The position numbers were made by a program, and so were the translations under genes. Under the pieces are notes generated by a model. The model was not told the origin of the DNA, searched no databases, and saw only the letters and a program-made list of their open reading frames with translations. From the NCBI GenBank assembly GCA_946699065.1, contig CAMPDV010001586.1, forward strand, positions 1-64,000: DNA of 64,000 nt. The letters run 5' to 3'. Shown piece after piece: positions 25,260-63,720 of the stretch. The stretch is from Loxodes magnus. Taxonomy: Eukaryota; Ciliophora; Karyorelictea; Loxodida; Loxodidae. The first letter of the stretch is position 1, and each line of letters begins with the position of its first letter.

Positions 25260-26501
25260 TCACTAATTCTTCTATTCTTCTTGATAGATTATAGAAATGT
25301 CAGTTCGTCTTACGGAAGAGATATTATTTTAACTATTTAAGCGAGGATCTTCAGTTTTTTATTTTGAGCTAATTAATGATTATCTTCTGGTGGTTCTCTT
25401 TAGTCAATTAGTTTTTAGGTCTTTTGACTAATTATTATTTGTAGTTTTTTTATTTGTCTTTTCAAAGGGATTAAATTTTGTCTTCAACTCATTAAAGCCA
25501 TCTTTTAATTATTTTATATTAGGTCTTTAGTTATAGTCTAGATTGAAGCAGCTTTCCAAAAGTTTCTTCAAATCTTCATTTAAAAAAATTTCAGTTTAGA
25601 ATAGTGTGCTTAAATCCTGTTTTTGTATAAGTTAAATCAATTTTTAATTGCCTTTTATTTGATTTTCTAGAATGCTCTCGTTAAATAATTCTACGGCAAC
25701 ACAAGCAAATGCTCAAATATCACTCGCTTAATTTTCTTAATTTTAAAGTACTTCAGGAGCAGCTAAAGTTTTCTTTTTAACGTTAAATAAAGAAATCTGA
25801 AATTAAAAACTTACATAAGCTGTTTTTTAAATCTTAATGTTATAATTATCATTCAGCAAAATGTTATGGGAATCTATATTGCTATGAATAATACCAGCGT
25901 TATGAATGGAAAGGATTCTTTCAGCTATTTGGAAGAGTAAATTTAATTTCATGCTAATTCTCAATTTAGGCTAGTTCACTAAATTGGGAAATAAATTTTT
26001 GGATTTAATAAGATCGAATAAGCTTTACTTCATTTAGTAATCAGTAATTAGACAAAAGCAGTATTCATCTTCTTATTCAGTATCTATAGAAACTCCTATT
26101 AAGCTCGTAAGTTTATCGTTTATTAGACATAAATGTGAGTAACAGTAGTTATAAAACTCCTATATTATTTAATGCTGAGAAATTTAAGGACTTTAAGTAA
26201 AAATCTTAATAGCATATTCAACATTATTTATTTCTATAACAAAAACACTCTTTAAATTGTCTTTATAGAGCCTTTTCAAACTATCTAAAAATTTGTTGTT
26301 TGGAATTAACTCTTTGTATTTTCAAATTCTGATTCTTGCTCTTTCATCTTCACTTGCCCCATTTTTTCTTAAAAGTTGCCAAATATCTTCCAAAGATTTA
26401 TTTTATTGTTATAGTTATTAAATTTAATTGGTTTAATATTCATTTTTACTTTGCCTACTTTGTTTTGTATATTAAGAAATATTTTAATTAGTATTTATCA
26501 T
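25260..26501 (-). CDS. TKL-like pseudokinase (cluster member K1)
   Basis: 413 residues from ATG 26501 to TGA 25260. The N-terminal module shared by the cluster is present (SLEDIWQLLRKNGA, RIRIWKYKELIP), then a kinase fold. The glycine loop is lost (RLYKDNLKSVFV), the VAIK lysine is kept (YAIKIF), the HRD loop is degraded to IIHSNIDSHN (Asp to Asn) and DFG is missing (KIQKTAYVSF). The structural SDIWAFACVAVELFNE segment is kept, with TGA as its Trp. The C-terminal tail is Ser/Arg-rich (LKRTTRRQSLISSK). It is predicted to bind partners rather than phosphorylate. It lies directly downstream of K2 in the same frame with no TGA between, so it could also be the second half of a fused protein. Confidence 0.75.
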
Positions 26502-26531
26502 TTTAATTTTAGAATTTTCGATATCCCATTT

Positions 26532-27526
26532 TTACAATATTAATTGAAGTCTCTCTCTAAACTACTGGATATCAGGCCTTAAAAGTGGGTTATAATTGAA
26601 GCAGTCCTTCAATAAATTCTCTAATTCCTTTTCTTATTTAATTTCATCTGAAAAGTCTGGAATCTTTTGATTTCTATAGATAGAATCTTTGATTTATTTA
26701 AGTGTTTTGATGTTTGGATAAGGCAAATCCTCATTAAAGATCTCAGTTGCAACACATGCAAGAGATCAAATATCACTTTTAAATACTATTTTATGTTGAA
26801 ACATCTTTGGAGCCATTCATTATCATGATTCTTAGTCTATTAGATCTATTAAAACATAAGCTATATTTTTTACATTTATCAAGCTTAAATCTTGTAATTT
26901 AGGTTTATTATTTTCGTCTAATAAAATATTAAGGGAGCTTAAATTCTTATAAATCAGTCTTTAGATGTGAATTGCATGAACTCCTTCGGCTATTTAATTT
27001 AATAATTTAAGCTTTCTTAAAAATCTTTATTAAGATCCTTTATCGATTTTATTAAACAATCGCTAGTTTTAAATTAAATGATAAAGATTATCTTCCTACA
27101 TATAGTTAGTATAGTAGCAAAAGCAATATTAGTTTTCGTTTTTAATGTCAAATGCTACTCCTAATATTTATGAAATCATTGGATTATTTATTGATAAAAG
27201 TGCCTTGCACTCGTTATAAAATTTTTCAATTATAAGATCTTGAGATTCATAATCTTTTTATCTTAGTATTCTTAGAGTATACTCAATTTCATTTATACTT
27301 ATTATATAGGCTTCATAGTGGCCAATTTAAATTCTTTTTTACTCTTATAATCATTACTCATTAGGAATCAATTCTTCATATTCATAAATTCTTATTCTAC
27401 CTCCCTATTATTTTCTTGCTCCGTTTTCCTTCAAAAGTTGCAAAATATCTTCAATTGTAATTTTTTGATTATTTTACTATTTAGTTTAATGCAAGTCTGG
27501 CCGTTTTTGTTTAATTCAGTCTCCAT
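26532..27526 (-). CDS. TKL-like pseudokinase (cluster member K2), one homopolymer shift
   Basis: About 331 residues from ATG 27526 to a TAA at 26532. One A appears to be missing in AGTAAAATAAT near 27473, where the frame steps by one. It has the shared N-terminal module (TIEDILQLLKENGA, GGRIRIYEYEELIPNE) followed by a kinase fold. All catalytic signatures are altered: glycine loop IQIGHYEAYI, VAIK to TLRILRQK (Lys to Arg), HRD to LIYKNLSSLN, DFG to LQDLSLIN. Scaffold motifs persist (WMAPKM, SDIWSLACVATEIFNED), with both tryptophans TGA. The domain end is LQLILQ then TAA. No TGA separates it from K1, so the end is ambiguous. Confidence 0.75.
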
Positions 27527-27593
27527 AAGTTAATGTTTAATTCTTATTTTCTTGATTTTTTAAATTTTATTTACTTTATTAATTATTTGGCTA

Positions 27594-29344
27594 TCACTTT
27601 TTTTATATTTAGAGTATTTATTCTCTGAATTACTAAATATTTGGTCTTTCTTCTGGATCAAAACTAAAGGATTTTTATAGCAATTCAACTAATTAAAGTT
27701 CTTTTTTAATTTCGTTAGAGAAATCTGGGTTTTTTTTTTATTTGTATACTCAATCTTTTATTTATTCATGACCTTTAAGGTTTGGAAAAGGAATTGTTTC
27801 GTTGAATATTTCAATGGCTATGCATGCAATAGATCAAATATCGTTTTTAAGGCTTACTTTTTAATCGATAACTCTGGAGCCATTCATTAGGGTGTTCCTC
27901 TTATTTATTCAGTTTAAGTAACATCTGACTCGCAAGATAAACCAAGATCTGATATTTTTGGTTCGTCATTTTCATCCATCAAAATGTTTAGTGATTTGAC
28001 ATCTCTATGAATCAAACCTGCAGCGTGTATAACTTATATTCCCTCTGCTATTTAACCTAGCAATTTTATCTTTTTGAAAAACCTTTCTTACGAGTCTCTT
28101 TGCAAGTCTTGAAACAATTATTATTCCTTGACTATTTTGTATAAGCTATTTTTCTGCTAATAAATGGTATAATGACAAAAGATGTAATCGTCTTTTTCTG
28201 AAGTATCTATCGCAATTCCTATAATTTTTAAAATTCTGGAATGATTAATAGATAAAAGAGCCTTGCATTCATTATAAAAATCTTAAATTAGTTCCTTTTA
28301 AGTTTTTCCTTTTCTTTATTTCATTATTTTTAGAGCATAGTCAAGTCCTTCAATGTTTATTTTATAAACCTGACCATATGTTCCTTTACCTAATTCTTCT
28401 AAATATTAAAGTTCATTTTCATTTGGAACTAAGCTTTTATAATCTTTCTATAGAATACAATTTTTATATTCTTCAATAAGTTGCTGAATATCTTCCAGCG
28501 TAATTCCTTCTTTTTTTCTAATTTTTATTTTCTTTTGGTTACTTATATCAGTGACTAGTTAGTTTTATTATTATAAACATTACTAATCTTCTTCAGTCTT
28601 TTAAGTCAATTTTATTTCCCAAGACTTACCAATGCTATCATATATATTGATTTTTTCTCCGTCATATTAATATATTTTTTCTTCGAAAAATATAGGATTT
28701 TAATACGAATTTTGTCCAGGATATTTACTTTCAGAAATTAACTCAAAATAGGGATCGTCTTAATTTATTTTTAACTAATAAACTCCCTCTAGGTTTACTC
28801 CAAATAAATAGACTTCTCCTTACTGATTTCTTGCTATTTTGATTTAAGAACTATAAGGCTAATCCTTAAAAGCGATTTTTAAAACATCAAAGTTAAATCT
28901 GAGAACTTGCTGTGTGCTAATATCATTTTAAGTTAAACCGATTGCGCCTATAATTAAAAGTTGAGATTGGTTTTGAGATTCTTAAATTTAATACTTGAAT
29001 AACCTTTTTTGGCTTGATCTTAAAGTCTTTTCACTTACATCAAAATACTCAATTGTTTATTCTACTTAGTCATAAGAAAGATCTTTTGAAACTATATAAA
29101 TTAGCTCTTTATTTTGTCTTACTACTTATACCATTTCGTGACATCTTTTAGGCTCTAACATTTCCAAAGTTTAAATTACCTTTAAACTTTTTCCATCTAT
29201 CAACTAAAAGTTTCTACTGCATTATCCATTTTTTTTCCCTCCAGATAAGAAAATAAAATCTTGCGTATATAGGACAGAGCTCTCTTCATCCATCTTTATT
29301 TGGGAATTTTGCAAATGTGATTCTTCAAAAGTATTGTTTAACAT
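27594..29344 (-). CDS. Kelch-like/TKL-like protein kinase (cluster member K3), one homopolymer shift
   Basis: About 583 residues from ATG 29344 to TGA 27594. Residues ~25-250 look like kelch or beta-propeller blades (FIFLSGGKKNG, LEPKRCHEMVQV, TIEYFDVSEK, EVYLFGVNLEGVYQL). The shared linker (GITLEDIQQLIEEY, LVPNENEL) and a complete kinase domain follow: ELGKGTYGQVY, YALKIMKQ, LIHRDVKSLNILMD, KISDLGLS, RGTPQWMAPE, NDIWSIACIAIEIFNE. WMAPE and NDIW use TGA for Trp. The HRDVKS signature is typical of TKL/RLK-type kinases. One A seems missing in ATTAAAAAG near 27865. The propeller probably recruits substrates or partners; that is inference. Confidence 0.85.
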
Positions 29345-29389
29345 TATTATGCAAGTATTTTAGCTTTTTAAAAGAGATACTTATGAATT

Positions 29390-30520
29390 TCATTAATTTT
29401 TGTCTATTTGATAACTTTACTAGCTAGTAAGTGATATATATGTATTCAATCTAGTCATTAAGTATTTCGATTATCCTTAAGTATCTTCTCTTCTACTAGA
29501 GAAATTCATTCCCTCATTAAGGTTTTATGGTAAGTCATTGTTAACTGCATTGAAATGCTTTTCTTTTATTTGGTCAATTACTTATCTGAATTCTTATATT
29601 TCAGGTCTTTCCGCTGGATCGTAACTAAAGGATTATAATAATAGATTTGCTAACTGCTAATCTTATTTTATCTCTTCTGAAAACTATGGAATTTTCTTTT
29701 AAACACAAATTTAATTTACGAAATCTCCAAAATCTACATTTTAAGATTCTAATTAAGGAAAAGGAACATTCTCATTAAAGATTTCTACAGCTACACAGGC
29801 AAGTGCTCATATATCACTTTTTATGCTTATTTTATGCTAATATACTTCAGGCGCCATTCACTAAGGAGTTCCTCTTGCGTTCAAAGTAGCAGAATAATCT
29901 AAATCATTAGCTAAACCTAAATCAGCAATTTTAGGAGTATCGTTTTCATCTAATAAGATATTATAAGATTTAATGTCTCTATGAATTAGTCCAGCATTAT
30001 GAATTGCATGTACTCCTTCAGCAATTTAGCTTAATAATCTAATTTTTTTATAAAATCTTTGTGGAGAACCTGGTGGAGAATCTGGAAACAATGATTACCT
30101 TTTAATCAAGTTATATAAATTTCCTTTTTATTGATAATTCGTATAATGGCAGAAACAAAACTTTCCTTCTTCAGTAGTTTTAGTTGCAACTCCAACTATT
30201 CTTAAAACTCTGTTGTGGTTAACTGATAAAAGAGACTTGCATTCATTATAGAAATTATTAATCAACTATTGCTAAGTTTATCCTTTTTTTTGTGTCATTA
30301 TTTTAATTGCATAATCAAGCCCTTCTATATTTATTACAAACACAGCCCCATAACCCCCTTAGCCTATCTTTTTGAGCTTGTTTTAATCTCCTTCATTTAG
30401 AAATAATTAATCATAATCCCAAATCCTTATTGGACATCTTGAATCTTCACCAGCTCCATTATTTTTCAAAAGTTAAAAAATGTCTTAAACCGTGTAATCA
30501 CTTTTAACTTCTGAGTTCAT
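29390..30520 (-). CDS. TKL-like Ser/Thr protein kinase (cluster member K4), intact
   Basis: 376 residues from ATG 30520 to TGA 29390, uninterrupted. N-terminal module DYTVQDIFQLLKNNGAGE and RIWDYDQLF, then a kinase domain with all key residues: KIGQGGYGAVF, YAIKIM (Lys), LIHRDIKSYNILLD, KIADLGLA, RGTPQWMAPEVY, SDIWALACVAVEIFNE. The end of lobe C is YDPAERPEIQEF. The Trp of WMAPE (29858-29860) and of SDIW (29807-29809) are both TGA, while RIWDY uses TGG. A Ser/Thr-rich tail of about 50 codons follows. It is the most upstream gene of four tandem paralogues, which probably arose by duplication. Confidence 0.9.
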
Positions 30521-32478
30521 TTATTATAAAAATTTATATTTCTTTGAATTTAAATCAGTCTATTCAAAAAATTTTATTTGAGCTAATTCAAATTTATTGT
30601 TTATTCCTATCTTTATTATTTATAAAGCATTCTAACTTAGAAATTTAGTTTTTAAAGTCTTTATTTACATATATCTTTCATTTTAATTTCTTCGCTTTAT
30701 GATAATGCTTCTTATGCATGATATAGTAAAAGCTTAAGAAGTTTATCTTTTTTCTACATAGCTCTTAGCGTTAATTTATTGCTATATTTTAGAAATTTAG
30801 TGTCTTAGCTAACTTTTTATGCTTTCTCCCTAATCTGAGCTTATCTACTAGATTTTTATTATTTGATGTATAAAACTTTGTTTATCTAGTTTGCCATTTC
30901 TAGATACTGAGAAGAAGATGATTTCAACTAAAATGCAAGATATGATTATATTATATTAGCCTTACAACCTTCCCATAATGTATATTTAATCTCAGATGGC
31001 TCTCATAATAACATCTGACTAGCTTTTAATAATTGCTTGGTAAGTATGTAAAACTTATCTAAAATACCAGATAATAAATAGGTTCTAGTGATAGTTAATT
31101 ATCAGCAAATCTTAATTCTTAATTATCTTAAATTAACTAGTTAATATATCCTTATGAGTTAACTAAATAAGGCTTGATAACCTTCAGCTGCTTTATTAGA
31201 CTCTATTTAATATATTCTTAAATAAGTGTATCTGAAATATTTTTTTTGAGTTTATAGCGAGAAAGAAAGAGAGGAGAATTAGGCTTTAAACTAGAGTGGT
31301 AAATAAGGAAATTAAATGAATCAAAACGATATAAAATTGACAGGATCTTAAGCCTTTAATTTTGATAAATTGCATAAAATAAAGAGATTTTTTTTCAAAT
31401 TGTAAGTCTAAAATATTATATAATAATTTTACTTAAAACCAAGGATAAAAAAGAAATTAAAAGCATTAAGTACTATTATAATAATATAAGTCAAACTAAA
31501 TTTATTCAGATCTAAAATAATAAACTTTAAATCTAATTGATTGATAAATCCTTTTTGCTAATTTTCTATGGATTGGATGATTATTTAGTTTATAATAGAA
31601 CAAGAAATAAAATTAATTGGTAGAAAGATCAGCATATTAAGGTGCTGTGAAATGAAAGTGTTAATATTAAGATATTGCAATTGCTTAAATAGTTACAATG
31701 AGCAATGCTTAATCTTAGTTAGGTCTTTAAATTTAAACTAAAGAAAAGTATAAAAAGGTGCAGAAAAGAAGAGGAATAAAGTTATTTTACATTAGATAAA
31801 TTATTCCTAATTGGCTTGATTTAATTTCTATTGAAATAAATAATTAAAAGGTAAGATAATTCTACAAACCTATTAATAAAATCATCTTATTTTACGAGTT
31901 TGCTATTAAGTATTTTATAAGTCTAGAAAATCAAATAGCATCATAACTAAAAGTTTCTGATTTTTCTTGTTTATTTGAGAAAATTTTTAGTGAAAAAGGG
32001 TAAATAAAAATAAAATTTTAATCAAATCTGGATGAAATCTAGAAAATAGCTTTAATCTTCAAATACAAATAAAAAAAGTTTGGATAATGTTGTTCCATAT
32101 TAGATATTTTCATGATTAGAAGATTGCTTGAAGAAAGATATATTACTTCTAAATTAGTTCTTAAAAGAGAAAATAAAAAGAGAGTAATTAAGTATATAAC
32201 ATGTAGGAGAAAGTTTAGAAAATTTGTATAATAAGCTGGTTCTCTAATATTTTGATTTTAGAAGCGAATATGTTTGTACAAATCTATTTTCGTTTAAGGT
32301 TTTAATTGAATTACAATCTAATATAAAGACATAGTATAAATATATAAATGTAATTATATTGCTAAAAGTTAACCTATTAGAAATAACTAAGAAAGCATTA
32401 ACTCAGCAAATTTTATCCTTAACTAAATACTTTTTCATATAAGTAGATTGTTTTACTATTGCTGCACAAAAGTTTAAT
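30521..32478. other. AT-rich intergenic region
   Basis: About 2 kb upstream of the kinase cluster, presumably including its promoter. T-rich to about 31000 then A-rich. A short plus-strand frame at 31651 onward (MKVLILRYCNCLNSYN) is the only coding-looking patch and is too short to support. No RNA gene or repeat seen. Confidence 0.45.
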
Positions 32479-32503
32479 TTAAAATATAAATTTAATTAAA
32501 AAA

Positions 32504-40792: not shown

Positions 40793-41998
40793 TAAATAAT
40801 ATAAGTAAGAGAATAAGTAGATACGTATTAGAGTTATAATGCTGATGTAATAGAATTAATAAAGGTAATTAGTTATTTCTAGATGTTTATTAACTTTAAT
40901 TTAAAGCTTTCATCTATCATGTAACCATTACATATTCATATTATATCATACAGATATGCATTACTATCTTTCTCTTTATTATTCGTTATACTATTCCTCG
41001 CTAAATTAATTAAGATGCTAAGTATGTGGAGAGATCTTACTGTATTAAATTGCCAGAAAATTTAAATAAATTATTTAGTGAATAATAGATTTAAGATTTT
41101 TGGGACCATTAAATCAGCAAGAAGTCAAAGATAAAAAAGGAAACTTGCTTAGGAGACAAAACTAGATCCAAAGAAGAGAAAAACTAAAAAACAAACCTCA
41201 TTAATCTGAACAGTATTAAGATAATTAAAGAAGTTTAGGATTGCTAATAAATAATTTTAAATATTAAAATCATTATGCACTAAAATAAATTTAGGCGGAA
41301 TTTTACAAAGCTTAAGTTAGGTTATTTGTATAACTTTATTTTTTAAATATTAAAGAAAAAGTTATTTAAACTTAATAGAGTAAACCAATAACTTATATAG
41401 CTTAATTGCATAGCATATCTTATGTATTTATTACATTTCACTTTTAAAATAATCAAGATAAAATGGCTGAAAAATCAGAATTTTTTTCATTTCTAAGTTT
41501 GATTTTTGTCTTTAAGTATTAATATCTCATAATATACCTCTTTCTTTCAGGTTTGTATAGTTAAGACTAATTATTAGCTTTTTCAGTTATTTTTAGTTGA
41601 TAAGTGAGAAGTCTTGGATGTGATTATAACTTAAGTTAAGATTTTGTAATGATTAGAAATATTTGTTATTTTTCTTTGATATTCTATCACGCGTATTAAT
41701 TTAGTTTTCTACTAGAGGCTAGTATAGGTATCATGTAGCTATTATACTAAATTTTTATTTAAGGCTTACTAATTTCGCGATATTTTCCTAAAATTATCTT
41801 ATCCCTTGGCTATGTAACAAAATATTCTATCTAAAATATTTTAGAGGGAAAATTCTTCCATTTTATATATTAATTTTAATAGTAATTATTCTTCTATTTA
41901 CTAAGTATTAAGTTAATAAAATAATACTATTAATATCTAAGTATCTCTTAAGCCAAAAATTTAGTTTCTTTTAATTTTTAGTTTATTCAAAAAATAAA
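40793..41998. other. Intergenic region with a degenerate duplicate
   Basis: AT-rich. It contains the degenerate duplicate at 41560-41800 (separate entry) and a short coding-like plus-strand patch at 41105-41270 (PLNQQEVKDKKGNLLRRQN) of unknown origin. Otherwise nothing recognised. Confidence 0.4.
41560..41800 (+). pseudogene. Degenerate partial duplicate of 39470-39690
   Basis: The two stretches align by eye with many substitutions and small indels. Shared blocks include AACTTAAGTTRAGATTYTGTAA, then GATTRAAAT..ATATTTG, TTGATATT, TAGT/TTTTCTACTA, and ATCATSTAGCTATT. The second copy is broken in every frame, so it looks like an old segmental duplication of part of the putative membrane protein gene that has decayed. 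Confidence 0.5.
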
Positions 41999-43783
41999 AT
42001 GCAAGCATCTTAATGTATAGCTTGTGAAGAAGAGTTCAACTAAGAGCTTAAAAAGCCTAGAAGATGTGATTGTGGATGTATTCTTTGTGAGACATATTTG
42101 AAAGGTTTCTACAAAGTTTAAATGAATTTCATATGCAACAATCATAACATTATCACTGATAAACCAATTGAAGAATTAGAAATACTAAATTTACATCTTT
42201 AAGAGGAGTCCAAATAAAACTAATTGAGTATATGTTAGTAGCATAATGAGATTCTATCATTGTATTGTCTGAGTGACAGTGCATTAATATGTGAAAAATG
42301 TCAATAGGAATCTCATAAGAATCATCAATGTGGTAGATAAGAGGAGATCGTTCTTATATGTAAGTTCGTATGTAAATGACTTTGAGTGCTATAAAGGAGA
42401 GGTTGAAGCAATATTCTTCTGTTTTAGGTCAATGATAAAAGTAGTTGGCTGATGATTATGCGATAAATAGAGATAAGATAATGTAGATCTATGATAAAAT
42501 CAAGAGAAGTTTAGAGTAAGCATATGAGGAGGTGGTAATAAGAGTATAGGACTAAGGTGAATAGTGTAGGTAGGAAATGGGTTAAAATAATCTTTTTGAA
42601 AGACTAAAGAGTATTGGACTAATGTAATAGGTTACTATATAGTAATGTGAGAAAAAGAAGGTGGAGATAGAGAGATTGGAGGTATAGTTGTAAGAGAAGT
42701 GAATAAAGGATGAGTAGAAATATTCTAAGTATAAGGCTATTCTTAGTTTATAGAATATGGAAGTTTAAGTCTTTGAGAAAATGATAAAGGAGATTCAGCC
42801 ACTATAGGAGTTGCGAGTTAGAGAATAGAAATCATTTTTTTAGAGAACTATATAGCATTTATGAAAGGAGTTATAGTTGTAGGCTAAATCATATGAGAGT
42901 GTAAAAAAGGAAAGTGAAGAATAAATATAAAAGTTGCTTTAGGTAATAAGAGATAAGGAAATGTTGTTGACTGACTTGAAGTAATAAATATCTCGTAACT
43001 AGAAAGTAATAGAGGATCAATAATTATAAATAAAGAGTTTGATCTAGTAGTAGAATGCTATCTTATAGTAAAAAGATTTCGAGTTATAAGGATATAAAGA
43101 TAAGTTAGAGGAATAATCTAAGAGTTTGAGTGAGTAAATAAAAAGTTTATCGAGTGAGTGTGTTTAATATAAATTGCGAATAAGTGATTTGTTGTAGGTT
43201 GTTTAAGAGAAGGATTAGAGGAATATATCTTAATAGTAGTAGTATGAAAAGCAAGATTTATAGAAAGACTAAAGGATAAGAGAGTTGTAGAATGAGCTTG
43301 ATCTTTAGAGAGAGGACAATGATAATTTAAGGGTTTAAATCAATAAATTGAGTGAGTAAAATAGTTAGAGAGAGTGATTTGAGTGAGCTTGTTGAGGCTA
43401 ATAATAATAATATTTTATAGAATCGTGAGTTGGGTTAGTAGATAGAGAGTTTGCGATAGGAGAGATCTAATTTGGAGAACTAGATATAAAGTTTATCGGA
43501 GGAAAGAAAATAGTTAACGAGTTAGTTGAATGAGTTACGAGCAAGGATAATGAAATATGAAACCATAATATCGATAGTATCTCCGAATAATAAATCTGTG
43601 AAGCTTGTGGTTAAGCAAGACACTACTATCGGATAACTAAAGGACATGATAGAATAATAAACTAAGTTATACGAATGGTCATTGGACATCTATAAGAATG
43701 GCAATAAGTTAGAGAAATATTAGACAATGGAATCTTTAAAGATAATGGATGGGGAATAGTTAAAAGGTTATACTTGCATTTGA
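41999..43783 (+). CDS. RING/B-box/coiled-coil (TRIM-like) protein with C-terminal ubiquitin-like domain
   Basis: About 586 residues, TGA 43781-43783. The N-terminal RING-like finger reads CIAC..CDCGCILC..CNNH (42014-42150). A B-box-type finger follows, C-x2-H..C-x2-D..C-x2-C..H-x2-H (about 42233-42325: CQQHNEILSLYC, ICEKCQQESHKNHQ). A ~380-residue Q-rich coiled coil comes next (QKVIEDQQLQIKSLIQQQ), then a C-terminal ubiquitin-like fold (VKLVVKQDTTIGQLKDMIE, WSLDIYKNGNKL, LKIMDGEQLKGY). The RING suggests E3 ubiquitin ligase activity. In-frame TGA are read as Trp (GQWQKQL, QHLWKEL). Two frame changes exist: one near 42355-42390, which a 23-nt GT-AG intron (GTTCGTATG...TTTGAG) would exactly repair, and a one-base shift near 43340. 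UBL at the C-terminus of a TRIM layout is unusual. Confidence 0.75.
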
Positions 43784-44848
43784 TTACCTTGATGGGGATT
43801 TATCTATGATGATTTGTGGAAATTTGGTTCTAAATATGATTTAAAAGGTTTAGGTAGAAAATCTAATGAATGGGAATGTAAGGTAATAGTAATAGATAAT
43901 TGGTAGTTAATTTGAAGTTTGAAGCATATGAAAAATAAGATAGGTTTAAATAAAGCAGAAAGAATTAAAATTAGAAGCTAAGTAAAATAATAGATAGTTA
44001 GTAACTTAAACATGTTTTGCATCTATTATTACATTTCCAGAATATACTAATAAAGATTTAGAAAAGCTTAATTTAAATTATAATTAACTTAATCTTGCAA
44101 CTTCAAACACATTTTTCTCATAGCAGCATAGATCTTTACTCAATTTAAGCTATAAATTCATAAACTTTTGTGATTGTTTTTAAAAATATGACTAGCTACG
44201 AACTATAAGGTAAAACTAAGAAAAAATAAAAAAGAAAAGTAAATTGAAGTAATTTAATAAGTGCTAATATCATTTGGTAATTAAGACAGCTTATTCTTTT
44301 TAATATGCTTCGTCATTTCTTTAAAAAAGAATGGATTAGTAAAAGAGATGATTAAGCACTAAATAAAAGCTTAATTAAAAGCTAATAAAGTATATAAATT
44401 TAATAGATAGTAAAATTAAACCTAAAATAATCCTTAATATTAAAATAATCCTTAGTGTTGAGAGGCACACAAATATATTTCCATTTTTCTTAAACAACAA
44501 GATAGATTTATTATAAGTAAAGAACTTCTATTTTATTTCTAAAAATTAAAAGAAAGCCCATATATAAAAAGTCTTTAGTGCTAAAATAATAATCTTAATA
44601 GGTTTTTTAATAACTATCTGATTAAATAGTTTGAAATATGCTTCAAATATTAAATAGAGATATGAATAAAGAAAGCATATCTATTTATACTTTTAGTTAT
44701 AGTTATATAATCTCAAACTTATTTAATAACTAAAGCTATTAATTCACTAATCCCTTCATAGTTAACTATAATCCTTTTATTTATAATACTGACTAACTTT
44801 CTTTTTATGCTTTAGAGTATAAAATGCAGGAGTAATATAGCTTCTTAT
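43784..44848. other. AT-rich intergenic region
   Basis: Nothing recognised in about 1 kb; low-complexity AT with no domain-bearing frame on either strand. Confidence 0.45.
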
Positions 44849-51300: not shown

Positions 51301-51344
51301 TTATATTGTTTTTAAATGTTATTATATATCAAGTTTATTGCTCT

Positions 51345-54300
51345 TCAGAACTAATTTTCTAGTTTAGGTTTTTTTTTTCTTCTAAGTATTTCCTTTCTTG
51401 TTCATTTTCAAGCTAACTTTCCTTTTTTTCTATTTTCTATTGTCAATCTTCTTCTTCTTCATCTTCGCTATCGTTTTCCTCTTCGTTCCAATCTTCTTCT
51501 TCCTCATCATTTTACATCTAATTTTGTTGGACATCTTATTCTTTGTTTTCTTGTTTTTATTATTCTTCATTCTCTTCATTAAAATTTTCTATTCTTAGAT
51601 TTGCTTCTTTTTATTATTTCTCGTATTGCTCTTCTTCTTTCTCTTGTTATAGAATTTCTCGCCTCCTTTTAATAAACATTTGAATGAATATTTTTATTTA
51701 TTCATCCACCATTTCTATTTTTTTCTTAGGAAAAGAGTTTATATATAGTTAATCGTAACTTATTAGTTTCAAAATATCACATTAACCAATTTTGGAGATC
51801 AATCATTCTCTTATATCAATGTAATATATACATTCCATTACATGTTGGAGAGTGTCATATTCTCCGCATATACAAAAAGGGTTTTCAATAATATAATTTC
51901 GATCTTTCAGAGTCTTTCGAAATGCATAAGACTGGCTTCTAATCTTATAGATACAAATTATTTCTTTCAAATATTTTTTGTTTAATTTCGTGTATGTTAT
52001 TTTGGGGAATTATCTTAGGTTTTAAAATTGTTCTGTATATATTTATGCAGTAGGCATTTTGCTGAATCTTGAAAGAGCTAATTCAAAATATGTCTTTTAT
52101 ATTTATGTCTACACATATTTACTGAATTAAATTAAGTTGTTATTGTGCTCTTTATTATCAATTTCTATTTTATAAAATGAGGCCAGTTTCTAAACTTCAT
52201 CATAATATTGATATCCCTCTTTATAATTATTCTCAAACAATATTCCAATAGATGATTAAGGTTGATTTTAGCTTTCATTTCTAATCTTAAAGAAAAACCT
52301 GAAATACTTAAGAGCCATCATGTGTTTGAATGGCATCCAGTTGAGGTCTACAAAGCATGATTCATTAAACGTATTTCCTGCTGATTAAAAGGCTTTTCTG
52401 GCTATTAATCTCATGCTCTTTTCAATTCTGTTCAAGATTCCATTTATTCCATATTGCACAGTCCAAGGTATTAAGTCCCCACCGTATTCTGCTTTAGGAA
52501 GCGTGAACAGTCTACAAAGCATTTTGAAATTTCAAGGTGTTACATTTCTATATCTTGATAATGCAAATACTGCCTTTTTAATTGCTGAAAGATAGTTTGC
52601 AGCAACATATTTGCAATGGTTAATTAGATTCTTCTTTTGGTGAAGGATCACCCCTAAATATGTGACTTGCTGTTTCTAAATTATTGCTTGGTCTCCTATT
52701 TTTAAGTCTAGTTTTGTTTCTTTGCTTTTCTTTTTTAAAAACTATAAGGTTTCACATTTGGAGACATTTATTTTAAGAAATGTCTAATTGAAAATGGAGT
52801 TTGCTTCATTAATAAGTGACTACATATTTTTTTATGAGTTCGATAATAGGATTAAATCGTCAGCTCAACCTCTACAAGTGAACCTATTCTTAAAATTAGC
52901 ACATCTGAATCCTAATATTTCTCCTTTGTTTTCTATATGTCTAATGACAATGTCATAGTATAATAATGCAAGCACAGGTCCATGCGAACTTCCTTACATC
53001 ACTCCATTGCTAAATTTCAATTTCTTAGAATTTGTTCCGTCTATAATAAAGGAAGTAGTTAAGTTATTATAAAAAGATTCTAAAGCCAAAATGAGACCTA
53101 GTGGTAATTTGACTCTTCTTAGTTATTTAAAAAGAATTCTTCTTTCAATAGAATCAAACATTTTCTCTACGTCAATTAAAGTTGCAATCAGTTTAGTTTT
53201 TCCTTTCGCTTGTTTTCGATAAAGATCTATGATTTATTGGATCACTCATATTTATTAGGTGGTTTATTTGTTCTTCATAAACCCCATTTAGCTTGAGTGG
53301 ATTAACTGTCTTTCATAAATTATTGAGTAGAGTCTCTTCGTAAGGGCCTTATCATATAATTTCAAAATAGTATTGATAAGGGAAATAGGGCGTCAGTTTT
53401 TTCAATCGTCTTTACTTCCTTTTTTGAAAATGGGGATTATGATAGAAGTATTAAGCTCTTCAGGAATCCTTCCAATTCTAAGCATGTTATTTATAAAAGA
53501 ATGAAGCATCAACGCTAGATAATATCCTGCATATTTTAGCAGTTCTCCTTTTATTCCATCTGGCCCTGCTGCTTTACCATTAGGAATTAGACTTATAAGT
53601 TAGATAATCTCTTCTATTGTAAAAGGATCGAAATTTTATAAGTAAGAAAAGGGTTAATTTTGAATTTCTATGTTATTTTCATAAATTGCATCTATTTTCT
53701 AGTTACTTAGTTCAATCTATTGGTTAGTTAAATTCGAATGCTTACTAAATACCTAATTTTCCCATGCTTCTACAAATTAGTCCTTCAATTCCTTATTAAA
53801 GTTCATCAAATTTCTTTGTCTAGGGTTAAGTATTTTCTTTGCTTAAGAAAACATATCTTTTGTGGTTTCATTGAGGAGTAGGAATCTGTTTTTGGCCTTT
53901 TGTTTTTTAAATTTTCATAAATGATGCTAAAAGCTTTTTCATAATGTGTTCGCTCTTTAGTGAAGATCAATGATTTCTTAGTTATTCCTCCCTATATATG
54001 CTAAAGTTTCTTTGTACAATTAATTTGCTCTCTTTGCTTCGATATATTTTTATGTGAGGTCCTTAGGAAGTCTATTATACTTCGGGTCTGGGATAAATGA
54101 GCCTAAAACTTAATCTGCATTGTTCTAAATGCAGTCTCTAATATAAGTGTATTAATCTTCTAAGTTATCTCTATCAATTAGGAAGAATACTTCTACTTAA
54201 TCTTTGAAGGAATTCTAATAGATAAATCTATCAATAGGATCCTACAGTCTACTTATTTTGTACTTTCTCACTTTTATTTTTTCAGTTTGAAGATGAGTAT

Positions 54301-57300
54301 GGTATACAAATTCAACTGTGAATGGAATATGATCTGAAAATAAGCTATAATTATGAACCTGAAAATTTCTAAATTAATTCATATTCAAGTGATTACTGAT
54401 GACAATATAATCGTTGCAATACATATTTTTATTCCCTTTATGTAAGCATGTGTTCATATTTGCATCGTTTATTATTTCTAAATCGTTTTAGAGAATGAAT
54501 TCTTAGAATCTATTTGTATTGTCATAGTTGTTAATAGGGTTATCCCCAAAGTCTTATAGTAGAGCGTTAAAATCTCCTAATAATATATGTGAGTTGTCAG
54601 GAAAAGAATTAAGGAATACATTTATATATTCATATGCTTCGTCTTTTATATTTTCACTCTTGCTGTTATCTGGCATGTAACAAGATGTTATGAATATATT
54701 ATCTAGTTTGATTGTAACGAACCTCTCTTGAGCTAATTGTTATATGCTATTCTATTCCGTGCTATTAAGTTAATCTCTAACAATTAAGCAAACTCCTCCT
54801 CCTTTTCCTGAGTTCTTGAAATAGGTCCTATATCCATTAATAAGTATTGGAGGATAGTCTTATTTTTATCACGTTTCATTAATTGAGAAAATGTCTAAGT
54901 CATTATTTCGTATAAATTCTTCCACGTTTAATTGCTTGCTTCCAATTCCATTTATGTTAATATGTCCAAGCTTTATTATGCCTATCTCTCTTTGCTTATC
55001 GATTGGCATCTTTATTTCTTAATTCCCAAATTCTTGTTCGCATTAATATGGCTATTCTACATTGTTCTCTACACCTCCTTTGAGTCTTAGTTATTTTTAA
55101 AGGACAATATAGTTAATTCTAAAATCAGTTTATAGCAGCGTTTTAACTATATAATTTCCGTTTTTTATAAATCGATGAATTTCTTATGATGAAGTCAAAA
55201 CTCCTCCTTTTATTCCTGGCTCATAAATACAGAGAATCTTCTCATTTTGATGAATTTATATGTTAAGCAATTTGGGGCAATTTTTGATATATTACCTGTA
55301 ACTTATTATAATGAATAATGTTAATGAATCGTACTTTTCGCTCAATTTATTATCGATTTTTATATTTATTTCATTTCCATCACACGTAGCATGGTTTAGT
55401 TTGCAAGATAAAGTTATAAATCTATTGCCTACTAAAGTGAAAAGATTCTAATTTCATCATTTATTGGACCTTATAAATTGAATTAGTTAGGCGTCTTTAA
55501 ATTCGTATTTATTTAAAATCTCTTCAATATTTATTTCATTAAACCCAAATTTTGACTATTTTAAGTTTAAAGTGTCTTGGTTAAATTTGGCATCTCTTCA
55601 ACTTCTCTTTCCAAATTTTGTTTGGCTATCCCAATTCATCACATATGATGTCTAGATATTTGAATTTTCTAAAATTTCAATCTGCTAATATTCTTAAATT
55701 TAATCAATTAAAAGTGTTTATGTTGAAGCGTTTCATTTTATTTCTTTCAAGTAAGATTGAGTTTTAACATCTTATTATTTTCTCTATATTTCTGAAATTT
55801 ATGCATAAACATTTAGCTTCAATTCTACTTGATGCTCATAATCCTGCATGAGTTAAACATATAATCCGTTTAATTCATTATATTACTCTTACAGTTTTCC
55901 ATTATTCTATTTTGTGATTTATAGTTCTTGTTAAGAAGCAACTAGCTAATGATTGGTAACTACTGTTATTGTTCCTTCATCCTTAGCCTTGATAGAATTT
56001 TAAGCTTAAATAACCTAATTCTTTAACTCCATGATTCTTGTCTAACTATAATTGTTTATTAATTTCCCTTTTTCTGTTCATGTTCAAGCATCTTTGCTAT
56101 TAATTTTTAAACAGGTTTGTGTTTCCTTTTCTCAAAATTATTTTTATTAACACGAGACAAGCCTTTAGTAGACACTCTATATATCTTAATTGATAAATTA
56201 TTTGTTTAATTTATCATATAAATTCTACAACTTTGTATACTTCAATTCAACGAAGTCGTACTAGGTAGATTGATCTAAGAATAATAAGTCTGTACCAGTA
56301 GTTGAATCTAAAGTCGATATAGTTGCTTGAGAAATTTAGTTGCTGAATTGAATTTCAATTTATGTTTGTTCATTCTATGCCTGAGGAGTGATTGTTTATG
56401 TAAAAATGCTTTTGACTGATTTGGCATATTTATTTTTTTGAAAGCTCAGTTCCTATGATATTTAATAATTCTCATTTTGTAATAATTAACACTAAGCCTG
56501 CTGTTACTGGCAATTGACTGTGAGTGAATGTACCTTTTAGTCGATCTGATCTATTTTGCTTAATAAATGAAAATTTTCACCTTTGAGATTTTAGTTAAGA
56601 GTTTCTACCTCCCTAAGATGTTATTATACTTCATTATGTCTCAAATTACATTTACTCAATTCAGCTTGAATGAATTAAATTTGAGTAACCAAGTTGTTTA
56701 TATTATTTTGGGCTTCTTACTTGGAAGCAAGTATTGCCTCATCTTGTAATTTAAATGATTGTGTCATGTTCATTAGCTCCTCACTAAGCATAGCTTGTTT
56801 TACTATACTTTGCTATTAAGTCTAAGTGAGAAGTTAACTCTAAGTTTCCAATTCTTATATTTAAGTTAAGGAAAGATCAGTATTCGTTTATATTGATTAT
56901 TATTTATTTGTAGCATTATTTACAAATTATTTGGACTAAAGCATTAACTATTTCTACTAATTATCAAACCTTAAGATTTAATTTTTATTCTAGGTTTTCT
57001 TAATTTACTTTTGAGCTTTAAATAAATAATTTTGGTATTATTCTAAGTGTATTTTATATTGTGATTTAATGTTTAAAGTTTCTTTATTGTGTTACTCATA
57101 TATATTTATTATCTTTTCTTACAGAGAATTATTTTTAGTTATGAGTTTTTAAATTCGAAATTTAAGATTTTTGCTTTCACTTAGCCTTTAATTTTCAAAA
57201 GTATTTGCCTCTTCTATCTTGCCTTAAATTTTATATTTTAATTTTGCAATTTTTTCTTAAAGTTACGCATTTTAAATCTCAAGATCAGTTAAGTATGTAA

Positions 57301-57847: not shown

Positions 57848-57861
57848 TTTTTTATTTTTTT

Positions 57862-57877
57862 AAAATTTGAAGATATT
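57862..57877 (+). repeat. LINE target-site duplication, right copy
   Basis: AAAATTTGAAGATATT, the 5'-side partner of 51211-51226. It is followed by the remaining host codons TTG TAG TAT TTT TGA. Confidence 0.9.
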
Positions 57878-57892
57878 TTGTAGTATTTTTGA

Positions 57893-58389
57893 GATTAAAT
57901 AGTGATTCTAAATTTGTTAATTATAAAATATGATTTATAAGCAGATGCTCAAATGAATTAATTTATATAAAACTTAATTATAAAAATATTTTGGAACTTA
58001 TGACTCAATAATACATAATGAAGGAAAAATGATTGCTGATGCTTATAAAAATTGAAAAGATTGATTAAATGAATTTGAATAAAAATAAAATAAAAGCTTA
58101 ATTAAAAGCTAAATATTTAATTATAAACATTGCAGTTCATTCAAATAATAAAAAGTATAATAATAAAAATAATGAAACCATTATATTATCTTAGAGCACC
58201 ACAATCATAATATAGATTTTACAATTACATAGCAATATAGCTATTAAGCAAATAATGAAACTATTTTAAAACTCATAATAAATAATTAAAATATAGCTAA
58301 ATAAATAAATTATAATCCTTTATTAATCTATAATACTAATTATAATCCCTCTTTTATGTATTTAAGAAAACCAAATCTATATTTATCAA
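57893..58389. other. AT-rich spacer between host gene end and tRNAs
   Basis: About 500 bp of AT-rich sequence after the restored stop of the interrupted gene. Nothing recognised. Confidence 0.4.
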
Positions 58390-58462
58390 GGGGAACTAGC
58401 TCAAATGCAAGACCGCTCGCTTTGCATGCGAGAGGCAACGGGATCGATACCCGTGTTCTCCA
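58390..58462 (+). tRNA. tRNA-Ala (UGC)
   Basis: 73 bases. The acceptor stem GGGGAAC pairs with GTTCTCC (one G-T pair). The anticodon stem CTCGC/GCGAG encloses TTTGCAT, anticodon TGC. The T arm ACGGG/CCCGT with loop ATCGATA matches the usual eukaryotic tRNA-Ala B box, and TTTT follows at 58463-58466 as Pol III terminator. The D arm is odd: the D loop lacks the usual GG (ATGCAA instead of ATGGTA) and the D stem has one mismatch (GCTC/GACC), so this copy could be mutated, or the bases miscalled. Confidence 0.8.
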
Positions 58463-58519
58463 TTTTGATTATTTTAATTTGTTATAATGATAATATTTAA
58501 TAAATATAAGATATATTAA

Positions 58520-58591
58520 ATAAGCCAGCTCAGTCGGTAGAGCGCCAGCCTTTTAAGCTGGTGGTAAAGGGTTGAAGTCCCTTAGGCGTTT
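58520..58591 (+). tRNA. tRNA-Lys (UUU)-like, degenerate acceptor and T loop
   Basis: D arm AGCTCAGTCGGTAGAGC, anticodon stem CCAGC/GCTGG with loop CTTTTAA (anticodon TTT) and T stem AAGGG/CCCTT are all canonical for tRNA-Lys. The 3' acceptor AGGCGTT has no partner, because the 5' side reads TAAGCC directly before AGCTC and seems to lack about three bases. The T loop reads TTGAAGT instead of TTCRANT. No T-run terminator follows closely. Either a decayed gene or sequencing loss. Confidence 0.6.
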
Positions 58592-58882
58592 GATTAAGTA
58601 TTTTAGAATGTTAGTAAATATTAAATGAATATTACTGAGATAGATATAAATTGAGGATATTAATTACATTATTTAATTTTAATCTACTTTATATAATAAA
58701 TCCTTTTTAGTGATAGTAATATTTATTTGTATTCTAATTACTATATTTATATTCTTTCTCTTTTTAGTTTTATTTATAAATTTTTCATATTACAATAAAT
58801 AATTTTTAAGAAAGCTTTTATATTTTTAAATATTTAAAGATAGTTTAATTACCATTCTCAAGTTTAGCTTTAATTATATCTT
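58592..58882. other. AT-rich spacer
   Basis: No gene or motif recognised; 3' flank of the RING gene. Confidence 0.4.
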
Positions 58883-59815
58883 TCATTTTTACTATACATT
58901 TATCCAAATAGTTTTTGTGTTAAGCTTATAATTTTGTGATTATTTAATTTTAAACTGCTAGCTTTAAGATATTATATTCTTAAAATTTCTATTTTTCTAT
59001 ATTTTTTAATTTAACTAACTTTAATTTTTATCATTATATTTACCCACAAACCATAAGTCTCTTTTGAACTACCTATTTTAATGAATCTTCTTAAACTTTT
59101 TACTTTAGTGTAAATTTATGAGCATCTAATTGCTCTCCAGAATTTTTTACCTAGCCTCATCTAACTCCTTTTACAGTCTCTAGTTCTTCTCCTTATATTC
59201 GACTTGCTGCTCCTGAATTAAGCATGTTCTTGCATTAAGCTTTAATAGTTATTTTTATAGGTTTAGTGGTCTTACTTCTATATACCAATGCTAAATTAAA
59301 CTTACATATCACTCTATTAGCTTCTCCTTTTCGTGCTGGTAGTTTTGCTAGTTCTCCTTTTTTTCATTCATCTGCTCTATTAAATCCATATACTACTAGT
59401 TCTGGTTATAAAGCTCCTAGTAATCCTAAGTCTGCTTGTCTAACTTAGTCTCTATGAATTCAATTTCCTAATCCTTTCTCTAGCATTGCTAGCAGATCAT
59501 AGGTGCTTATCTATACTCAGCTCCTTAGGTAGATACAAATTCACTTTTCCCTTAGAAAGGTATTTTATCTCTGGCTAGTCTGGCTAGGAGTATACTTATC
59601 AACTCTGAGTCTGTAATTTCTGATTTCTACTCACAAACCTGACACAAAAAGTCCAACTCCTAGAGTTTCTACTAACTCTACCTACTCTTCACATAAACCT
59701 CCAAGAAGCAGTCCTTACAATATCCATGCTTACATATCAAAACCTAAGCTTCATATACAGTCTTACTCCTACAATAGCAGCACACTCCTTAAATTTAAGC
59801 TTAATTAGTTTACAT
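58883..59815 (-). CDS. RING-finger coiled-coil protein
   Basis: 310 residues in one frame from ATG 59815 to TGA 58883. Residues ~10-60 form a complete C3HC4-type RING: VCCYCRS (Cys pair 1), LICKHGYCKDCF (Cys, His, Cys pair), FLCQVCEQ (last Cys pair). After a linker and a further MICQQC pair, residues ~110-260 are a Q/E/K-rich coiled coil (KDQEIEFIETKLDKQTQDYQ, NQRLQKELDEARQKILESNQ). One internal TGA (KLIEWYVS) reads as Trp. It is probably an E3 ubiquitin ligase that dimerises by its coiled coil, in layout a small relative of the TRIM-like protein at 41999-43783. It starts 66 bp after the upstream gene ends on the same strand. Confidence 0.75.
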
Positions 59816-59881
59816 TTTTAAGGGTATAAAAGTAAGGCAAATTTATAGTGTACCTTTATTAAAGAAACTAAGCTTGTTAGA

Positions 59882-60898
59882 TCAGAAATCAATTGAATTC
59901 CAATATAAATCTAGGAATTCTAGTCTTAAGGTTTGAAAGCTGGATGTTAGATGGTTTGATACCCTTGAAGGAGCTTTTAGATGGTATATGAAGCATGTGG
60001 AGTTTAGCTGGTGTTTGGCTATCTCTTTAAGACGTGCTCTGTCCTTTTTTACCTCACCTTAGGGGTTTATTTTATCAAGGTTAATATATTTAAGCTTAAG
60101 GTGGAAGAAGTTTGAATGGTTTAAGTATAAAGCTGAGATTTTATGCTTTAGCTGAAGAGAAGTAGATGAAGATAGAGTCATTCTGGAGATTTGCTGATCC
60201 TCATACTCCTTAAAAGGTTTAGCTTATAGCTCCATTAGCTGATTTACTATTAAATAAGAATGATGTGTTTAAGAAGGGCTAAAAGAGAAGACTCTTGAGC
60301 TATCCTTCTTTTATTTACTCCTAAGATGTTTAGAATATAAACTAGAACTTAGTTTTAAGCTTTGTTGTATTGTAGCTTGTAAAAATTGTAGCTTTACAAT
60401 ATTTTCGCTTTTATATCTAGCAATGAAAGCTACTGCCTGGGATATTTTTCTAGATATTATCCCAGTCTCTTTATAACTCTCTTGAACCTTTAAGATGATC
60501 GTATAAGCTTCCTTAATCTTCCATTAAAATCGATATTTTGATATGAGAGTTACTCCAGTTTTTCCAATGCAACTCCTTCTTTTGGCTTCTTTTTACTAGC
60601 TTAGTATCCTTGATCTCCTTACTAAATCTTCATACCATTAAGCATAAAATCTAAGCATCTTGCATTCCTTTATCTTTAGCTCTTTAACGATTTTCTTGCC
60701 TAGTTTTTTAGCCTAGGATTATGAGTTTACCTCAAAGAGTCCTATTGGGATCTATTTCCCTCTCCTTTCCTTATCTCCCGTAACTCTACTTTATTGTCTT
60801 GCTAGTCCTGAAAAAAGTTAGCTAAGAAGAAAGACAAGAAATAACAATTTAAGCAGCTTTTAGCAAAGCCTGATAAGCCTTTCTTAAAGAGAGTGCAT
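59882..60898 (-). CDS. Signal-anchor protein of unknown function
   Basis: 338 residues in one frame from ATG 60898 to TGA 59882, with no internal TGA at all, which supports coding. Residues ~12-33 are a hydrophobic signal peptide or anchor (KLLKLLFLVFLLSQLFSG), preceded by basic residues. The rest is basic and helical (GDKERRGKQIPIGLFEVN, EAYTIILKVQESYKETGI, NPQGEVKKDRARLKEIAKHQ) with a Ser-rich patch (SSSLYSKHLRSKQKKDSSR). No family recognised. The opposite strand can also be read as a hydrophobic protein, but its composition is that of an antisense shadow. Confidence 0.55.
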
Positions 60899-61191
60899 AG
60901 TGTTTGGTGTTTAATACCTGGATTTGGAACGAAACGGTATGACATAAAATAAAGTTCCTGATATCAAGTCTCATTCTTGCTGCTTTCCTCATAGGATAGT
61001 TTAGGCCAAAGCCTATTATAAGTTTAAACTGAAGCCATAATTACTCACTTCAATTCACTTAAGCTAACAGGTTAGCTCTTACTACCTGTTATTTAGGTTG
61101 CTCTTACATACTGATAATAGATACTTAAACCAATTTTAAAAGCTTGAAGATAAATAGACTTATAGAAATAAGGATAATCAATAATTTAAGT

Positions 61192-63720
61192 TCAAATAGA
61201 GATTTCATTTTTACTATTGGCCATTTTTCAATGAGTCTAAGTTGATTCTTCCATTATAGTCTTCTACATCCATAGATTTAAATTAAAGTATATTTTTTTT
61301 TCTTCATCTTGAGGGTTCTAGACTTCCTTTTTAGAATGAGGATTTTTAGGTGAAGAACTAGAGTAAGAAGGAATGATTACTTCTTCTTAGTTTTGCATAC
61401 AGGTTTATGCGTCTTCAGACTGATTTAAAATTTCCTGTTTAGTCTCCGGTTTTTCCTTTTCAATGGTCTGTCCCTCTATCTGCTTTATCCTTTATCTGTC
61501 CACCATTATTGATATGAATACTATCCAAATATTGACCTTTAATTTTCTGATGCAAATAAGATTCATTAGCATCACGTTGGGTAGTAATTTATGTTTGCTA
61601 TAGTGTGTCTTTATTCAAGTAGGAAGTGCTATCTTCAACCATAACATCGATCTAGAAGTTACTTATCAGGTTAGCTATGTCGCTCTTTTTCTCCTTCTAA
61701 CCCTCATTCATCTACTTACCATCTTAAGATGGATGCACTGGCTATGACACTTAGGATTTGCTTTATTCACTTGTAGATCTAAATATCTTATTGGAGCATA
61801 ATGTCATAATCAAAAGACCAGAATTGGATTAGATAGGAGATAGTAGAAAAAGTAGCTGATAAAGAGACAAGGTATTCAAGGAAGAGTTTCTGCTGTGTTA
61901 AAAGCAGCGCAAACGCAAGAAATGACAATTAAGCATGAAACGCAGTAGATGAAAATAAGGACTTACTAGATTTTCTAACACTAGATTAGGATCTTTATGC
62001 ATATCTACTTTCATACAGACATTCCTAAACCTATTAAAACCGCAACTCCAAAATTTTAACCTTTAAATTACCCTAATCTTGTCTATTAAGTAGCAGTTAT
62101 AAGATTTATCAGTAAGTATCAGATGGTAATAGTAAAGTCTATATATAAAAATGAAGTTTTTCTTAGAGTTTGGGATTGAACTCTTACTCAAGGGCTTATT
62201 ATGGAAGCATAAGATGCTCATTGGAATAGTTTTGGTAGATTTATAGAACTAAAATCTAAAGCTTAATCTAAATTTTCTTTTGTCTTTTGACACTACAATC
62301 AGAATTATAAGCATCTAAGTTGAAAAAATATGAAACATAAGATTACTAATAAGTAAGCAGTAACTGGATGCTTATAGCTTGATTAATTTTCATGCTTTCT
62401 TTTTTCATCTAAATTAAGGTCTAAGTTTGATTCTTCTTCATTTTACGTTTCTTCATTTTCTTCTTCCTAAACTTATTCCTCTTAATCTTGCTCTTCTCCA
62501 CTCTCTTCCTCCTATTGTTCCTCTTGCTCCTCATTTTCTTATTCTTCTACCTCTTATACAATTGAAGCGAGTCTAATAAGTCCTGACTAGCTACATTTAC
62601 ACCTGTAATAGTTAGTTAGCTGGGCTTTTTCAATAGAGCATGAAGTTCCATTATCTCACTTATATTCGTTAATATCTCACATTTGGCATACTACGTTTGA
62701 AGATGTCTAAGTTTGGGTATAGTTCAGAACATACTCAACTTAGATGTTCACTTTCTTCAGACTATCCTTCTTGATATAGAATCCTTCTTACGTCTTTTCA
62801 GATATTTAGTATACTTCAAGACTTAAATAATTGATATAGCTCAAATCATCCATCTCACATGGATTGTTTCTTCAAATAGTAAAGATTACATCAAAGCTTC
62901 CTTAGAGATCATTAGAGTAGCTTAGTACTTAGGCAGAGAAATTCCAATACTATCATTACTTCTCCTTTAGAGTTTCAACAGTTTAGATCATAAAAAAGAA
63001 AAGACTCTAGTCTCATAGCTCTATTTCTTAAGTAGGGATTTCCTTCTCCTTTGTATAGGATAGAAGAATTACTTGCAAGATTTATCAAATTTAGACTTTA
63101 GAAGTTTGATAGGTTAAAGTATGATCGTTTGTATAGTTAAAGGTACTTCTTCTAGTTATTAGACTAGCTTATACTTCTTGTTCGATGTTAAGCTTTATAT
63201 AGTAGAACTGTTTAATGATCTGCATAAGCTAAGACATCTAATTTTAGGATATCTGGTACTTTGTTTACTAGTTAAGACATTGGTAGATGCTGTCTATATA
63301 GTTCTGCAGGTTTTCAGATGTTACGTTTAGTCTTACTTCATAGTAGCTTGAAACTGCTATTGTTATCTATTCTTGGTTCTCTATTTTTTAGGATAGATAT
63401 CATAAGAACTGTTTCATATCTAGAGGAGAAAGATTAGGAGCACTGGTACTTATTTGAATAGCTAAGTCATGCATAAAATTCTAAGAAATATAGAGTTTTG
63501 GAAAAGAGATCATCATTCTTTAGTTCTTTTAAAAAAATAGATTGAAGATGATTAACGCATCCTTTATAGGTATTCAGAAAATATAATAATTTATTCTCTG
63601 AAGAAGGATACAAATTTAGCTTTAATTTTATCAGCTACTTAGTCTTTAACAATTAATCCTAGTATTGAGGTCAAGCCAATCTAAAATCTTGTCGATGAAA
63701 CTAAGACTCCTATTTAAATA
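61192..63720 (-). CDS. GPS-domain multi-pass receptor (REJ/polycystin/adhesion-GPCR-like), 5' end not found
   Basis: About 840 residues, TGA 61192. The extracellular part (63720-62690) is N/S/T-rich and REJ/GAIN-like (SAPNLSPLDMKQFLWYLS, SYYEVRLNVTSENLQNYIDS). A GPS motif lies at 62688-62560: CQMWDINEYKWDNGTSC..RCKC, matching C-x2-W..W-x3-G..C..C-x-C, with both Trp TGA (62677-62679, 62656-62658). There follow a ~50-residue Glu-rich insert, then at least five membrane helices (VTAYLLVILCFIFFQL, IDFTITIWYLLINLIT, FGVAVLIGLGMSVW, VLIFIYCVSCLIVISCVC, CLFISYFFYYLLSNPIL) and a ~190-residue acidic cytoplasmic tail. One-base shifts appear near 63470, at TTTT 61813 (last helix to tail) and at GGG near 61490. 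No signal peptide is found, so the N-terminus is probably upstream or beyond the window. Confidence 0.75.

Follow-up and report, generated by a model that had tools for sequence, protein, structure and literature searches.

Loci and reassigned stop codons in the window

The window, as we call the whole stretch of 64,000 nucleotides analysed here (positions 1-64000 of contig C1586; the whole assembly has 7843 contigs and 705,730,643 bp), has a G + C content of 27% and carries four kinase domains (K1 to K4), the endonuclease and reverse transcriptase of a long interspersed nuclear element (LINE), a long tandem array, and several smaller features. Under the standard code, just four stop-to-stop frames of at least 150 amino acids exist across the window; the kinases and the LINE are open throughout once TAA and TAG are translated as glutamine and TGA as tryptophan. 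The original prediction, made from the letters of the window, had proposed this code, with UGA serving both as Trp and as stop, and had placed the source in or near the karyorelictean ciliates. Here we weigh how these three triplets are read, first in the window and then in other genes of the same assembly.

Pfam bears out the four kinase domains, all on the reverse strand; one is split in two. K1 (PF00069; 29506..30499) contains many in-frame TAA and TAG triplets, with TGA at 29858-29860 (the x of an xMAPE motif) and 29807-29809 (DIx), and scores 158.5 bits with TGA read as Trp, 156.2 as Tyr, and 145.0 as Cys. K3 (PF07714; 26500..27458; four in-frame TGA and one TGG) scores 94.3, 87.9, and 79.8 bits in the same order. 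K4 (25448..26426), also matched by Pfam, has TGA at 25715 (DIx) and at 26324, where the paralogue alignment places TGG in K1 (30421) and TAT in K3; between paralogous kinases, TGG and TGA are exchanged at two columns. Both K3 and K4 (25448-27458) are without the usual, canonical HRD and look pseudokinase-like, in frame with one kinase domain piece.

That piece belongs to K2 (27594..28699, the K3 of the original prediction), whose two parts, 28699-27880 and 27848-27594, lie in different frames and were matched by Pfam separately. Its TGA triplets start at 27886, 27836, and 27752, with a putative stop at 27596-27594 on the reverse strand. The change of frame inside the domain (between 27886 and 27845) may reflect decay of this copy or an error in sequencing. 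The TGA at 27594 had been taken for the end of this gene, a role that appears doubtful because K3 has TGG at the position aligned to K2's TGA 27596, because the second piece of K2 shares one common frame with K3 and K4, and because the codon scan downstream of K2 finds no in-frame ATG between 27640 and 27300; on present evidence we do not accept it as a stop. A single multi-kinase protein is possible, with the frame change in K2 leaving decay or sequencing error open.

The LINE frame (51329..55018, reverse strand) was likewise recovered as predicted, with a reverse transcriptase (RVT_1, PF00078) and endonuclease matches (PF03372, PF14529). In the codon scan its TGA triplets include those at 54871 (INETx), 53404 and 53395 (xKNxRPIS), and 52867 (xADD), among others, and its end is likely the TGA at 51331-51329. 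Together, the window kinases and the LINE use 20 TGA and 8 TGG. All nine of the claimed triplets that were tested, across these genes and the smaller features, are indeed TGA: 29858, 54869, 53393, 62677, 62656, 27594, 58883, and 59882 on the reverse strand, and 43781 on the forward strand.

For residue preferences, homologues were fetched with X at all three triplets (35 for K1, the best 120 of 123 for the LINE), and the query therefore favoured no reading. Over the 80 TAA columns of the kinases and the LINE, profile log-odds were highest for Gln (23.6, the next being Glu at 7.1), a value reached by random equal-sized column sets in none of 5000 draws, and the 21 TAG columns gave Gln 4.2, which random columns reached in 14 of 5000 draws. 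Thus the statement that TAA and TAG sit in frame at glutamine-like positions throughout these genes holds. The 16 TGA columns gave Tyr 15.4, Trp 13.5, and Phe 12.7, each matched by random columns in 0 of 5000 draws. Because the four paralogous kinases share columns, we reduced these to 12 distinct ones, over which the three residues are level (Trp 4.9, Tyr 4.5, Phe 4.5). Aligning the TGA positions to homologues, the check that had been suggested, therefore upheld an aromatic enrichment and left Trp unseparated from Tyr in the window. That nearly every invariant Trp is TGA was overstated, as homologues carry mostly Tyr or Phe at the xMAPE, DIx, and RPIS sites, and the genes use TGG as well.

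TGA as tryptophan in other genes of the assembly

Taken at face value, the window profile, led by Tyr before the reduction to distinct columns, and homologues that mostly show Tyr at the kinase and LINE sites could suit a code in which UGA means Tyr or another aromatic residue and not Trp. Other genes of the assembly, taken from further stretches (labels L0xx) in frames chosen by codon bias, decide the matter in favour of Trp. In an aromatic amino acid hydroxylase (AAAH), a BCKDH-type E2, and CK2-beta, TGA falls on Trp columns of solved relatives. In the solved-structure rows copied for AAAH, E2, PMCA, and CK2-beta, the 13 Trp cells comprise 4 TGA, 5 TGG, and 4 other codons, but TGA occupies 0 of the 49 Tyr cells in the same rows; conversely, the 8 TGA cells fall on Trp (4), Arg, Phe, Met, and Val (1 each). 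These counts take PMCA columns 356 and 723 twice, once per target, and omit PMCA TGA 2977 (adjoined by a Trp of 9gsd), PMCA TGA 826, a kelch gene, a DUF155 gene, and further target rows from the same searches. TGG itself lies on Tyr columns in 3 of 10 TGG cells, and hence Trp on Tyr columns is usual in these genes, which would account for the pattern in the kinases.

Pfam scores point the same way. Ten proteins were submitted, of which nine had scored domains, yielding 15 scores (second kinase models, PF14529, Hydrolase_3, zf-RVT, and matches below cut-off were left out), and over these Trp exceeds Tyr by 23.8 bits and Cys by 59.7 bits, with Gln exceeding Glu by 49.3 bits. For the DUF155 gene an in-frame protein search scored none of 251 candidates and no solved relative was found, and its TGA thus counts through Pfam alone, where Trp leads Tyr by 7.5 bits. 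With these totals we rejected UGA as Cys as well as UAA/UAG as Glu, the latter with 3 of the 15 scores opposite; UGA as Tyr was rejected on the Pfam margin together with the empty Tyr cells, and, with Trp also level with Tyr over the 12 distinct window columns, we regard it as the least credible of the alternatives considered, close to excluded.

Several observations nevertheless pull against the proposed code. Considered alone, the window data would identify TGA as aromatic without telling Trp, Tyr, and Phe apart, and one AAAH TGA sits on an Arg column. Among individual Pfam scores, Tyr leads Trp in the LINE1 (3.6 bits) and LINE2 (1.7) reverse transcriptases and in the PMCA nucleotide-binding domain (3.2), Cys leads Trp in the LINE2 reverse transcriptase (2.2 bits) and two PMCA domains (1.2 and 0.1), and Glu leads Gln in two E2 domains (2.3 and 2.5 bits) and one PMCA domain (0.2). 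To these is added the apparent TAA end of the array gene described below.

A different objection is that UGA might be a stop only, as in the table 6 ciliate code with UAA/UAG as Gln, in which case the in-frame TGAs would mark pseudogenes or errors. Decay or sequencing error does exist here, as the frame change in K2 and 1-nucleotide indels in several copies of the tandem array attest. Against this stand TGAs within five otherwise open genes (AAAH, E2, PMCA, CK2-beta, and DUF155), three of which have the triplet on Trp columns. Across 11 gene pieces, moreover, 40 of the 61 Trp-type codons are TGA (40 of 5239 codons, or 0.76%, in the counted gene pieces, two LINEs included), and the codon signal persists beyond most in-frame TGAs. 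We consider a stop-only UGA very improbable.

Two repeat structures were noted among these stretches. At the end of one contig, a second reverse transcriptase gene (L006) occurs as three tandem repeats spaced by 2532 bp, and the PMCA and guanylate-cyclase genes (L017, L025, L026; contig C100) recur about 18 kb apart, as a large tandem duplication or an assembly repeat.

TGA as stop and the remaining genes of the window

The clearest case of both meanings is the E2 gene (L019, 4501-6030). Its codon 17 is TGA, aligned to a Trp of 3duf, and its alignment runs to residue 262 of 262 in 2ihw, with TGA TGA following directly; a complete alignment followed by this pair shows that TGA is also a stop, so that Trp and stop TGA stand within one gene, as the predicted code has it. 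The same gene has TAA (Gln) at the His of the 2ihw SADHR motif and VLST at the following IIDG, and may encode an inactive enzyme.

Other frames behave similarly. The eRF1-like frame ends in PDEDFL followed by TGA, with two more in-frame TGAs within five codons, an end that we set beside what we take to be that of human eRF1. In the AAAH frame, TGA comes one codon past the end of the alignment to TPH2, whose chain continues (325 of 349), and in the CK2-beta frame it comes 36 codons past the alignment end. Among stops anchored by homology only TGA was seen, with few ends tested. Genes were predicted to end at TGA just after their last conserved element, and E2 supports such a use of TGA, even though the particular stop at 27594 is doubtful.

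The tandem array (1800..21636, reverse strand; about 7.9 copies of a 2522-bp unit by self-BLAST, with seven gene copies) departs from this pattern. Its gene, for example at 19713-21030, has 0 TGA and 10 TGG where the 11 other pieces have 40 and 21 (Fisher p 9.6e-5), and carries 2 TAA beside 8 CAA/CAG (p 5.3e-4). It seems to end at TAA, with the next in-frame TGA not before 19428, and this counts against the proposed code because a UGA-only stop rule does not predict a TAA end. No relatives were found in Pfam or among solved structures, and the best PHROGs match reached only E 0.019. Is this gene highly expressed, or foreign?

A Condylostoma-like heterotrich using table 28, where each of the three triplets may act as stop and as sense, would accommodate the TAA end and shares the sense meanings of the triplets. 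Yet TGA closes the frames of E2 and eRF1, and the AAAH and CK2-beta frames meet TGA soon after their alignments; in addition, the PMCA gene holds a single 20-nucleotide intron candidate (GTA...TAG), longer than the 15-16 nucleotides of heterotrich introns. Such a source is thus highly unlikely.

The smaller features named in the prediction fared unevenly. A B-box is real in the TRIM-like gene region at 41861..43800 on the forward strand (PF00643, E 3.1e-9; putative stop TGA 43781). The RING-like frame at 58883..59860 on the reverse strand, with an in-frame TGA at 59311 and a putative stop at 58883, reached a RING match below the Pfam cut-off (RING_XB3, E 0.0078), leaving that label unconfirmed. 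In the region labelled GPS (62445..62724, reverse strand), the two supposed Trp codons at 62677 and 62656 are TGA, but Pfam returned no GPS domain at 62445-62724 or at 61447-63279. The forward strand also carries a tRNA-Ala(TGC) at 58390-58462 and, at 58524-58588, a tRNA-Lys-like sequence (TTT) in which several acceptor-stem bases are absent and which is probably non-functional.

Decoding machinery and comparison with known codes

A modified tRNA-Trp had been suggested as a place to look, and two forms of tRNA-Trp(CCA) were found. The first search pattern matched 3 sites against 14 for its reversed control, and from it the contig C110 site alone was carried forward. A pattern allowing two mismatches, which recovers near relatives of these tRNAs only, gave 128 tRNA-Trp(CCA)-like sites and 0 in reverse. 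Of the 128, 100 are listed, and in 97 of these the top anticodon-stem pair (27-43) is unpaired: A.C in the 48 listed sites on contig C67 and U.C in the 49 on C148. The three listed C110 sites have a U-A pair and a full stem. In the copies examined, one each from C67, C148, and C110, Rfam sets its non-standard mark on exactly that pair in the first two and on no pair in the third, and ARAGORN calls tRNA-Trp(CCA) for all three. Nearly all listed sites at C67:482309-491188 (L031) and C148:155450-168712 (L032) stand in tandem, at spacings of about 187 bp and 241 bp, respectively. Among the matches listed for Loxodes and related terms, titles and abstract openings contain no report of such arrays, and we do not claim newness. 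The arrays, together with the avoidance of reassigned codons by the array gene, are the parts of this analysis that deserve a second look.

The suggestion to look at eRF1 was also productive. A profile search of the assembly matched PF03463 in three places, two on contig C196 (L028 and L029), which we read as eRF1 copies, and one on C2 (L027) that resembles pelota/Dom34 by eye. Both C196 copies contain RAQNIKS and FFLCENTF, which differ from what we take to be the human eRF1 motifs, and the L028 copy has four TGG and no TGA before its end.

In the most likely mechanism, an altered eRF1 would terminate at UGA only; UAA and UAG would be Gln only, and UGA would be Trp inside the message and stop near its 3' end, where eRF1 would win at a UGA close to a short 3' untranslated region and poly(A) tail. 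For the table 27 code the choice between sense and stop is reported to depend on how far the UGA lies from the poly(A) tail (PMC11441545), and a 4-bp anticodon stem, found in a tRNA of Loxodes, to raise UGA readthrough (PMC13092985). We infer that the two tRNA-Trp(CCA) forms perform the decoding, and tentatively posit, as a plausible scheme that falls somewhat short of probable, a division of labour between two populations: a few full-stem tRNAs (3 of 100 listed) would serve UGG and the arrayed unpaired form (97 listed, at most 125 of 128) would read UGA, its dosage letting UGA carry most Trp codons and yet stay a stop, and genes using TGG alone (the L028 eRF1 copy and the array gene) would be spared the competition. 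The arrays make directly testable the idea that more 4-bp-stem tRNA allows more UGA to be read as Trp.

Taken together, the window almost certainly comes from the Loxodes magnus macronuclear genome and follows the published table 27 code, the species name being the inferred part of this best explanation. A karyorelictean or close relative had been predicted, and the double use of TGA within E2 and the intron candidate agree with this: introns of Loxodes average 19.3 nucleotides (mode 17, mostly 16-25) and those of heterotrichs measure 15-16 (PMC11441545), so that our one case fits the former and not the latter. The macronuclear assembly of L. magnus is given as 706 Mbp, its coding-sequence G + C content as 33.5%, and its RVT_1 copies as about 2,700 (PMC11441545). 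The code is real, and as organism and table are already published (NCBI table 27; PMC11441545), the finding is already known. A codon that carries two opposite senses within a single gene truly breaks the one-codon-one-meaning rule, but this instance is published; the use of the present analysis lies in checking it independently on raw genomic DNA, where one clean gene, E2, has both meanings, and in the tRNA-Trp arrays.

Among known systems, the karyorelict table 27 code described for Loxodes and Parduzcia (PMC4967479, PMC11441545) shares UAA/UAG as Gln and UGA as Trp or stop, as well as very short introns, many LINEs, and a large genome rich in tandem repeats, and at the code level we see no difference from it. 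The reported TGA share of codons is 0.120% in Parduzcia sp. and 0.042% in Condylostoma; the share found here is higher. Condylostoma magnum (table 28) has the same sense meanings of the three triplets and context-dependent termination, but there the other triplets can also be stops, whereas here homology-anchored stops are TGA, and heterotrich introns are shorter than our single candidate. The Blastocrithidia-type code, with UAA/UAG as Glu, is not matched, given the Pfam margin of Gln over Glu and its three opposing scores. The tRNA-Trp(CCA) with a 4-bp stem reported from Blastocrithidia, Condylostoma, Blepharisma, and Loxodes (PMC13092985) has the same unpaired top pair as ours; here, by comparison, it occupies two contigs, mostly in tandem, and accounts for 97 of the 100 listed sites, beside three with a full stem.

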